The notes under the pieces: model-generated
Databases searched by the model: none
Seen by the model: only the letters and a program-made list of their open reading frames with translations
What the model was told of the DNA's origin: nothing
Program-made: the position numbers and the translations under genes
Part shown: in pieces, positions 27,942 through 43,433 of the stretch
How the letters are laid out: every line of letters starts with the position of its first letter
Numbering within the stretch: the stretch's first letter is position 1
DNA from: Caulobacter sp. CCUG 60055
Lineage (GTDB): Bacteria > Pseudomonadota > Alphaproteobacteria > Caulobacterales > Caulobacteraceae
DNA: 64,000 bases
NCBI RefSeq assembly: GCF_022750545.1
Contig: NZ_PUIC01000004.1
Location: 124,001-188,000 of the forward strand
Reading direction: 5' to 3'

Positions 27942-28535
27942 ATGACGGCGCGGCTGCTTCCTGCCGGGGGACACAAGGTCACGCCGTGGAAGAACGGCCT
28001 CGGCGTCACCGCCGAGGTCGCCGCCTTCCCGCCGGGCGCGGATTTCGAAGCCTTCGACTGGCGCGTCAGCATGGCCCAGGTCGACGCGGGCGGCCCGTTC
28101 TCGCGCTTTCCCGGCGTCGACCGCGTGCTGGCGGTGCTGGAGGGACGGCTGGCCCTGCGCGTCCAGGGCCGCCCGTCCCTGGAGCTGAGCCGCCGCTCCG
28201 CCCCCGCCGCCTTCCCAGGCGACGTCGACACCGACGCGGCCCTGATCCGCGGCCCGGTGCGCGACCTCAACATCATGACCCGGCGCGGCCGCTGGACGGC
28301 CGAACTGGAGCGGCTGGCCCCCGAGGCCCCGACCACGCTCGCCGTCGGCGCGCCGACCGCCCTGCTCCTATGCCAGGCGGCCGAGGCCAGCCTCGGCCTC
28401 GACGGCCGCGCCTGGCGGCTGGCGCCGGACGACGCCCTGCTGATCGAACACCGCCCGGACGCCGTCCTGGCCGTCGAGCCGCACGGCGCGGCGACGCTCT
28501 ACCTGGCGCGGCTGTTCCCGACGGCGCCAGGATAG
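27942..28535 (+). CDS. hutD: HutD-family protein
   Basis: A 197-residue cupin-like protein with WKNGLGVTAEVAAFP, FDWRVSMAQVDAGGPFSRFPGVDR and a C-terminal VEPHGAATLYLARLFP. HutD is common in hut operons; in Pseudomonas it has been proposed to limit hut expression, perhaps by binding an intermediate. It starts 2 nt after hutU. Its last 60 or so nucleotides recur in damaged form at 30341. Confidence 0.88.
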   Translation: MTARLLPAGGHKVTPWKNGLGVTAEVAAFPPGADFEAFDWRVSMAQVDAGGPFSRFPGVDRVLAVLEGRLALRVQGRPSLELSRRSAPAAFPGDVDTDAALIRGPVRDLNIMTRRGRWTAELERLAPEAPTTLAVGAPTALLLCQAAEASLGLDGRAWRLAPDDALLIEHRPDAVLAVEPHGAATLYLARLFPTAPG

Positions 28536-28540
28536 CCCGG

Positions 28541-30136
28541 TCAGTTGCCCAGGGTGTAGACGCCGTTGTCGTTCTCGACGCCTTTCCAGGCCAGGCGGAT
28601 CTGGTTGTTGAAATAGGCGATCCCGGGAGGCTCGGAGCTGCCGACGTTGTGGACGTTGGCCTGGCTTGACCATACCGGCGCGGCCCCGGCGACGTCCCGC
28701 GCCAATTGGCTGAACCAGAGGCCCTGGTCGCCATCGACGCCGCGCCAAGCCGCGAAGATCACGGTCGCCCCCGGCGAGGTGAAGTTGGGCGCGGCGTACA
28801 TCACGGCGAGGCTCGGTCCGCCCGCCGATCCTGGCCGCTCGGTCTTCGGGCCAGCCCCGCCGTTGCCGGGGATGGCCCAGCTGACCTGAACTTGCGGGGC
28901 GAAGGCCAGCGAGCCCGGCGGCGCCGTCGTGGTGTAGAGCGACTGGTCGCCCCTGACGCCCCGCCAGAGCAGTCGGGCGCCGCCGTCGATGTCCTGGCAG
29001 ATCGCGGGCGCCGCCGCCGTGCCGACATTGGGAATACGGGTTTGCCCCTGCCAGCGGCCAGCGCGGAACTGCGAGGCGTAGATGCCCTGATCGTCGTTCA
29101 CCCCCTTCCACACCATGGTCGGCACGCCGGCGATGATGGCGATGCGCGGCCCATGCGACGATCCGGCGAAACCCAGGCCCTGTTGCGGCGGGTTGTCCCG
29201 GGCGAAGAGGTCGGTGCTGGACTTGAAATAGAGCCCCTGGTCGTCGCCGGTTCCCCGCCAGACCATCCAGAGTCGAGTTCCATCATAGGCCAGAGCCGGA
29301 CCGCCGATGGTGGCGACGTCGCCAAAGCGTTTCTGCGGCGACCAATTGGCGCCGTCGCGTGAGAACGACATCCAGATGTTGCGGTCGTGGCCGGCGCCGC
29401 GCCAGGCCATCACCAGCACGCCGCCGCAGACGCACAGGGCCGGCGCCTGCTCCGTTCCGAAGGCCAGCTGCTGTTGAGGCGGCCAGTTGTAGAGCGCCCT
29501 GATCGCACCGTAGTCGTCGGAATTGAGGACCTCCTGGGGTCCCGCGAAGGCGTTCATGATCGCATTGCCGGTGGTGGCGTGCAGCAACCCCAGGGCGTGG
29601 CCGATTTCGTGGGTGGCGACGTTGAGCAAGCTCTGGTTGGGGCCTGTCGCATTCGCGGAGAAGGCCGCTCCATTGCTGAAGGTGATCGACCGGCCGTCAG
29701 GCGTGGTTAGGCCGATCGCCGGCGCGGTCAGCGGCCCGACTTCCAGAGCGATGTCCCCGCCGCTCGCCACCTGGCGGAAGCGAAGCAACGGCGCGGCCTG
29801 GGCCCACAATCCGAAGGCGCGCACGAGTACCGGCGTGACGGCCGCAGGCCCGCCGACGCCGACGACCGAGCCGGAATACGACCATGAGAAGTCGAACTTG
29901 CCGCGCCATCCGCTCGCCTTCAGGCCATAGGCCTTGGGACCGAGCCCGCCGCCGTTGCGCGGCGGATCGGGCACGCCGCAGCGCCAGCGGCCGCCGGGGG
30001 GACGGGTCAAGGCTCCCCTGATGCTCGTATAGGGCTGGCGCGAGCGGGCCTAGTCGCTCGCCGGCCCTTGGGCCAAGGCGGCCGAGCAGCATCCGCACCA
30101 GCTGGCGCCGCCGATGAGCAGGTCTCTGCGCTTCAT
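28541..30136 (-). pseudogene. Matrixin-type metalloprotease with six propeller-like repeats, split by an in-frame TAG
   Basis: From the ATG at 30136 (GGAG 8-11 nt before it) the frame encodes a Tat-like signal peptide, KRRDLLIGGASWCGCCSAALAQG, shown here in part, then ASD and a TAG at 30052-30050. The same frame continues without another stop to 28541. The remainder has a small zinc protease domain with HEIGHALGLLH (around 29611-29579) and a nearby Met-turn, as in matrixins. It is followed by six repeats of the form (A/V)W(R/K)GxxxDQxLY spaced about 50 residues apart, probably a six-bladed propeller. A TTG at 30010 could start the protease part alone, but it would lack a signal. Nonsense mutation, stop read-through or a base-call error could explain the TAG. 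Confidence 0.72.
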
Positions 30137-30340
30137 TGTCAGGCTCCGTTGTGCAAGGAGCGGCTGACTGGCGACGCTCCGACGCGAGATCAGAGAACGC
30201 GGTGCACTGCCGGCGCAACGTACACGAGTTGCAACCTTAAGGAAACCTTGAGCAATGCTCGTAAGTTGCGCCGGGACCATCCCGCGCGCCGCAGACGTGG
30301 GACCTCGGAGGACCACGGAACGCCCCAAGGCCGTCAGCAG

Positions 30341-30413
30341 GCGGCCGTCAAGCCGCACGGCGCGGCGGCGCTCCATATGGCGCTATGTGGCGCGGTTGTT
30401 CCCCGCGCCCTAA
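30341..30413 (+). pseudogene. Remnant of a hutD 3' end
   Basis: Codons from 30341 read AAVKPHGAAALH, then a 10-bp insert (30377-30386), then VARLFPAP and TAA at 30411. The intact hutD ends AVEPHGAATLYLARLFP. The DNA matches closely (for example the 17-mer AGCCGCACGGCGCGGCG is shared exactly). The insert resembles the adjacent GTGGCGCGGT and shifts the frame. The matrixin gene lies between the intact hutD end and this remnant. Confidence 0.75.
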
Positions 30414-43300: not shown

Positions 43301-43433
43301 CGGCGGCGAGGGCCTGTCCGGCACCGGCCCCAAGGCGGGTGGTCCTCACGCCCTGCTGCGCTACGCCGTCGAGCGGGCGACCAGCGTCAACATCACCGCC
43401 CAGGGCGGCGACCCGGCCCTGCTCAATCTTTAG
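40347..43433 (+). CDS. putA: Bifunctional proline dehydrogenase / P5C dehydrogenase PutA
   Basis: A 1028-residue enzyme that oxidises proline to glutamate at the membrane. The proline dehydrogenase barrel spans about residues 130-430 (RLMVRLVKGAYWDSEIKRAQ, GHEDLLPYLVRRLLENGANTSFVH). The aldehyde dehydrogenase domain spans 500-1000, with catalytic Cys in VGSAGQRCSALRLLFVP and GVFVCISPWNFPLAIFTGQ. There is no N-terminal ribbon-helix-helix DNA-binding domain, so control falls to PutR. The size fits the short type A PutA. Confidence 0.97.
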   Translation: MDWDTLDDGKYRDEAEAVRDLLAKAPLDPIDRAAVRAEAEALVRTARRSARRQGVVESFLQEFSLGTREGLALMCLAEALLRTPDEETRDRLIAEKIGSADWAAHLGQSDNLFVNASTWGLMLTGKLVDVDEDAKNDPPGFVRKLASRIGEPVIRHAVAQAIRIMGEQFVLGRDIEAALKRAASDGYMCSFDMLGEGARTAADAARYEKAYADAIEVVGKLSKGAGPEAGHGVSVKLSALSPRYEAVQEARVWEELYPRVKRLALIAARHDINFTIDAEEADRLALSLKLLDRLCREAELGEWKGLGLAVQAYQKRGPEVIRRLRALAEETGRRLMVRLVKGAYWDSEIKRAQVAGRPDYPVYTTKPATDLSYLVCAEAMISAAPHIYAQFATHNAHTLAAVGRLAKRQGVKIEYQRLHGMGEALYRAAEDLYDGVTLRAYAPVGGHEDLLPYLVRRLLENGANTSFVHALLDERVPAEDVVVDPITAVESHPDRHAKIPRPADVYGPGRPNSAGVDLSVRAERERLAKAVAAVDAEKLIAGPIVGGKLLAGVAPSAVTSPADAAHVLGQASEAGPADIDEAFRLARAAQPAWDRAGGPARARTLRAMGDALERDADRLIAILSREAGKTLPDAVAEVREAVDFCRYYAHLAETQFADGEVLKGPVGETNTLALRGRGVFVCISPWNFPLAIFTGQIAAALAAGNAVLAKPAEQTPLIAAEAVRLYHAAGLDPNLLALTPGRGETVGAALTAHDGLDGVAFTGGTDTAWKINQTLAQRQGPIVPFIAETGGLNGMFVDTTALKEQVVDDVVISAVGSAGQRCSALRLLFVPADTADMVIEAVAGAMDALVIGDPAQPTTDVGPVIDEDARALLEAHLTRLKNEAKVLRQLDAPAGGVFFGPVLAEIPSADFLQREVFGPILHVVRYDPENLEEVAKVLAAKRYGLTLGVHSRIEAFAEEVARLVPAGNVYVNRSMIGAVVGVQPFGGEGLSGTGPKAGGPHALLRYAVERATSVNITAQGGDPALLNL

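Follow-up and report, generated by a model that had tools for sequence, protein, structure and literature searches.

Caulobacter sp. CCUG 60055 probably carries an imported gene for a Tat-exported, MMP-like zymogen, which a natural nonsense mutation silenced in the recent past. We assign this reading a probability of roughly 0.7. The gene lies on the minus strand of the 64,000-nucleotide stretch of DNA analysed here, hereafter called the window. Its frame encodes a predicted signal peptide, a cysteine-switch motif, a matrixin domain, and a C-terminal propeller-type domain, and is interrupted by one TAG close to its 5' end.

A single TAG interrupts an otherwise coding frame

The minus-strand frame that leads from an ATG at 30136 to a TGA at 28541 is open apart from a single TAG at 30052-30050. 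A GGAG ribosome-binding site (30144-30147, minus strand) precedes the ATG with a spacing of 7 nt. The 28 codons between the ATG and the TAG (30053-30136, minus strand) encode MKRRDLLIGGASWCGCCSAALAQGPASD. Judged by its motifs, the segment of residues 1-22 is a predicted Tat-type signal peptide with a twin arginine, a hydrophobic stretch, and a putative cleavage site between ALA and Q (MKRRDLLIGGASWCGCCSAALA, followed by Q). The TAG (30050-30052, minus strand) is the seventh codon past the predicted signal peptidase site, and it is followed by 502 sense codons up to the TGA. The original prediction had placed a Tat-like signal peptide at 30136, the TAG at 30052-30050, and more than 500 codons beyond it, and these coordinates proved to be correct. 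The view that the TAG is the only defect, with ribosome-binding site, zinc motif, and repeats intact, held as well. We detected no second lesion in the frame, and the catalytic, switch, and repeat motifs are all undamaged. With an early in-frame stop within an otherwise coding frame, the gene has the form of a nonsense pseudogene. A search for promoter- or terminator-like sites was negative.

The coding signal extends across the stop codon. Third-position GC amounts to 0.83-0.90 through the TAG and drops to ~0.5 upstream of ATG 30136. On a codon adaptation scale based on 12 other window genes, the 28 codons before the TAG reached a value of 0.496, compared with 0.519 for the codons after it. 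The two other frames scored 0.161 and 0.219, and the region just upstream of the ATG 0.197, which can be compared with a 95% range of 0.09-0.39 for random off-frame segments. Since a coding signal is present on both sides of the TAG and in the same frame, signal peptide and protease once belonged to a single gene.

The same data bear on the possibility that translation starts 3' of the TAG. The first in-frame codon that could serve this purpose is a TTG at 30008-30010 (minus strand), and its use would yield a cytosolic, leaderless protein that retains the switch and all domains, with the upstream frame as a leftover. TTG is an allowed start codon, and the sequence AGGGGAG is located just upstream at 30019-30013. 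The gap between the two is, however, merely 2 nt, whereas ATG 30136 has a well-spaced GGAG, and the coding-type usage of the 28 upstream codons would be left unexplained. Matrixins, moreover, normally act outside the cytosol. A distant relative with a switch, encoded on contig L051, has a Tat-like signal right before its CGVPD motif, an arrangement that argues against a native form without a leader. We therefore consider translation from TTG 30010 quite improbable.

Alternatively, the TAG might be a base-call or assembly error, in which case the gene would be intact in the strain and encode a Tat-exported matrixin-propeller protease under the control of the switch. The undamaged remainder of the frame and the continuous coding signal are what such an error would leave. 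On the other hand, the assembly appears to be of good quality (27 contigs, 99.99% completeness), and assemblies of this kind contain few substitution errors in comparison with naturally occurring nonsense alleles. An error of this kind is thus unlikely.

Age of the stop codon and termination context

We simulated neutral decay of the frame and counted the resulting stop codons. At 5% divergence, a mean of 3.3 stops was obtained. At 12% divergence, which corresponds to that of a repeat flanking the gene (see below) and presumes that its copies were identical at insertion and drifted from then on, the mean was 7.2 stops and the probability of finding at most one stop was 0.004; the simulation was run without indels, and the 12% value dates nothing if the second repeat copy arrived with donor DNA. 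Compared with these numbers, the single lesion indicates at most a short period of decay.

None of the 40 tRNA genes above the cut-off encodes a UAG-reading (CUA) tRNA, and TAG closes several intact genes of the window, for example at 43433 and 48209. The original prediction had left it undecided whether the stop arose recently, is read through, or reflects an erroneous base call. A recent origin agrees with the one lesion and the coding signal on both sides, whereas read-through is disfavoured by the missing tRNA and the ordinary use of TAG as a terminator. Read-through at some frequency, which would set the amount of secreted enzyme, is consistent with the intact frame 3' of the TAG. It would also be in line with a survey of prokaryotic genes that described in-frame stops with dN/dS <1 and proposed frequent read-through, although the same survey deems many such cases short-lived (PMC7918605). 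In our case, no UAG-reading tRNA was found, TAG terminates neighbouring genes, and no homologue shows conservation of the stop, which makes read-through very improbable. The related idea of a leaky stop that is maintained as a gate between Tat signal and cysteine-switch domain of the zymogen, so that secreted protease results from a small and perhaps condition-dependent fraction of translation only, is most doubtful. We rather infer that the TAG is biologically real and that the product has been lost by a natural nonsense mutation.

The frame encodes an MMP-like catalytic domain and a cysteine-switch motif

The matrixin (M10A-like) catalytic domain occupies positions 29471-29965 (minus strand). 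The zinc motif HEIGHALGLLH, which had been predicted in this frame, is present at 29611-29579 and corresponds to the HExxHxxGxxH zinc site; it is followed by the Met-turn NAIMN. A Pfam scan matched the domain to PF00413 at 2.8e-12, with a score of 47.3 bits compared to a cut-off of 24. The alignment-based AlphaFold2 model of the catalytic domain had a pTM of 0.73, and in a Foldseek search against the PDB the top matches were all MMP catalytic domains (E ~1e-8, TM ~0.6). Thus, the domain has the MMP fold.

Between the TTG and the catalytic domain, the frame encodes the cysteine-switch motif RCGVPD (29966-29983, minus strand). It comprises residues 10-15 counted from the TTG, with the cysteine at residue 11, and has the usual spacing to the zinc site; the arginine is preceded by W, not P. 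The Cys, Gly, Pro, and Asp residues of the switch are invariant in 22 aligned proteins (the window protein and 21 others), but the 21 others were retrieved with a pattern requiring these residues, so that the invariance demonstrates the alignment and not independent conservation. Since the model confidence is below 50 in the switch segment, we infer the capping of the zinc by the cysteine from the motif.

The Pfam scan revealed no RTX or RsaA-type domain, that is, no C-terminal region for type I secretion. Membership in the serralysins (M10B) was rejected because this region is absent.

The C-terminal domain consists of six W(R/K)G repeats

The C-terminal, propeller-type domain (28541-29470, minus strand; 310 residues) was recognised by its repeat motifs, its relatives, and a mixed profile. 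Six W(R/K)G...D motifs begin at residues 203, 251, 301, 349, 422, and 475 (counted from TTG 30010), so that successive repeats are spaced by ~50 residues, except for one wider interval. While the number of six repeats agrees with the original prediction, the pattern W(R/K)GxxxDQxLY proposed for all of them does not hold exactly. The form W(R/K)GxxxDQx(L/I)(Y/W) fits four of the six repeats, and since repeat 1 (WRGAGHDRNIW) and repeat 6 (WKGVENDNGVY) deviate, the pattern represents a consensus. A full-length AlphaFold model calculated without an alignment was discarded; with a pLDDT of 31, it was too poor for a blade count, and six refers to the recognisable repeats.

The C-terminal 312 residues gave no Pfam match, which, together with the six W(R/K)G repeats, argues against a four-bladed hemopexin domain. 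Relatives of the repeats occur in Nonomuraea, Streptomyces, and a GH18 protein of Tolypothrix. A profile constructed from the window protein and four relatives matched PLL lectins (6rfz) at 7.7e-17. Neither the sequence of the window protein alone nor a profile of its repeats alone matched a PLL lectin or another solved structure; any relation to these lectins is therefore remote. The repeat layout of the window protein resembles that of the PLL-type lectins of Photorhabdus and of the wider family of PALAVF..LYCVHRG..D..LWW repeats. In contrast to the six recognisable repeats of the window protein, PLL lectins have seven blades (PMC6943638).

A DNA pattern for the propeller matched the window and no viral contig. 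In the propeller relatives from the phylum and the order whose frames were read, the repeats occur without an attached matrixin domain. One protein of the Caulobacterales (L154, family genome G046) is built of PALAVF..LYCVHRG..LWW repeats and lacks a protease domain. On a Tolypothrix plasmid (L010:1276-6078), a GH18 chitinase-type domain is joined to numerous repeats that belong to the propeller family described here. This fusion suggests that repeats of the family serve as a docking module for various secreted enzymes.

Comparison with relatives and known systems

We detected no orthologue at the level of the family (299 genomes), the class (385 genomes), or the phylum (up to 399 genomes). 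Single-sequence scans of the genome contigs and viral contigs likewise yielded no relative, and a strict CGVPD...HEIGH DNA pattern had no match in the genome contigs. The interrupted gene is the only M10 gene of its own genome. Matches to the M10 profile outside the family, as far as they were read in the correct frame, were serralysin-like or of other types without a switch. The design of a protease joined to a propeller had been called unusual, and indeed no other protein with the same domain combination was found.

A looser CGVPD...HEIGH pattern retrieved 67 viral contigs, and only the proteins of two IMG/VR contigs, L051 and L062, align with the window protein from the switch onward (~29-31% identity). 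These nearest switch-bearing proteins share with it a Tat-like signal, which in L051 and L062 directly precedes CGVPD, a short linker, and the matrixin domain. They differ in being single-domain proteins that lack an internal stop and whose signal and switch are separated by a shorter linker; L051 has no propeller, and L062 is cut by the end of the contig. The 67 IMG/VR contigs filed as viral (L015-L081), some of which are ~200 kb long, encode MMP-like proteins with an RCGxPD switch and HExGH, and one of the contigs scanned (L018) adds a PG_binding_1 prodomain, as in animal MMPs. Three of these MMP-like proteins were tested against PHROGs and matched no family. These proteins may be phage-borne matrixin zymogens.

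With the MMPs (MEROPS M10A, PF00413), the window protein has in common the switch by the catalytic domain, the HExxHxxGxxH motif, the Met-turn, the fold, and a C-terminal propeller-type domain. In contrast to MMPs, its pro-segment is very short and lacks the usual PG-binding-like prodomain, its signal is of the Tat and not of the Sec type, and the sequence RWRCGVPD stands where MMPs have PRCGVPD. The C-terminus is composed of six W(R/K)G repeats, whereas many, though not all, MMPs have a four-bladed hemopexin domain. The loop that reads GGxLAWxxLP in other members is altered. Karilysin of Tannerella forsythia is another MMP-like protease from a bacterium; its pro-segment is also short, and it was matched by both sequence and fold. 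Unlike the window protein, it uses an Asp switch and lacks a propeller.

The M10 matches within the family are serralysin-like proteases of the Caulobacterales. They have the matrixin domain in common with the window protein but differ by their RsaA N-terminal secretion regions and by the absence of a Tat signal, a switch, and a propeller. Four proteins of the family (L002, L003, L004, and L006) have the matrixin domain fused to an RsaA N-terminal (S-layer export) domain, which for L004 and L006 was read from their sequence similarity to L002 and L003.

A flanking repeat and poor codon usage point to horizontal acquisition

The convergent neighbour of the protease gene is hutD (27942-28535, plus strand), which ends at a distance of 5 nt from the TGA of the protease gene. 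A 41-nt segment of the hutD 3' end (copy 1, 28469-28509, plus strand) recurs upstream of the protease gene as a degenerate hutD 3' end (copy 2, 30343-30383, plus strand). Both copies have the same orientation and flank the gene, and 36 of the 41 bases are equal; ~3,000 control pieces compared with the same stretch gave at most 27 equal bases. Copy 2 contains a 10-nt insertion that nearly repeats the adjacent bases. The most plausible interpretation of this repeat is a footprint left by an insertion or recombination at the hutD end. The neighbours of the protease gene, hutD and a THAP4-like gene, do not lie side by side in the relatives examined, so that no empty site could be demonstrated there.

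The codon adaptation of the protease gene (0.52) was the lowest observed, with values of 0.62-0.83 for the 12 other window genes, whose scores are somewhat high because these genes defined the scale. Given the lack of an orthologue, the poor codon usage, and the repeat of the hutD end, the gene looks horizontally acquired. These signs of acquisition, the hutD remnant, and the cysteine switch had escaped the earlier interpretation, whose frame and stop otherwise stood.

Discussion

According to the preferred reading, the twin-arginine signal of the intact product would have exported a folded protein in which the cysteine of RCGVPD would cap the catalytic zinc. The matrixin domain would then be freed by removal of the short pro-segment, and anchoring of the enzyme on a glycan-bearing substrate might be the task of the lectin-like propeller. 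Both the activation mechanism and the glycan binding are proposed here. In the sequenced strain, translation would start at ATG 30136 and halt after 28 codons, giving the signal peptide and six residues, and no secreted protease would be made.

What is new is the domain combination, within a known kind of protease; the stop codon itself is ordinary. Neither the design nor the TAG alters known principles, and the gene is a modest curiosity without a new mechanism. If the design is real, the animal MMP layout of switch, matrixin, and propeller is paralleled in a bacterium with a different propeller, which would bear on how frequently docking domains of the propeller type are added to proteases. 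Provided that the TAG is real, the gene would show an imported secreted protease in the process of being lost, following a period in which it was intact.
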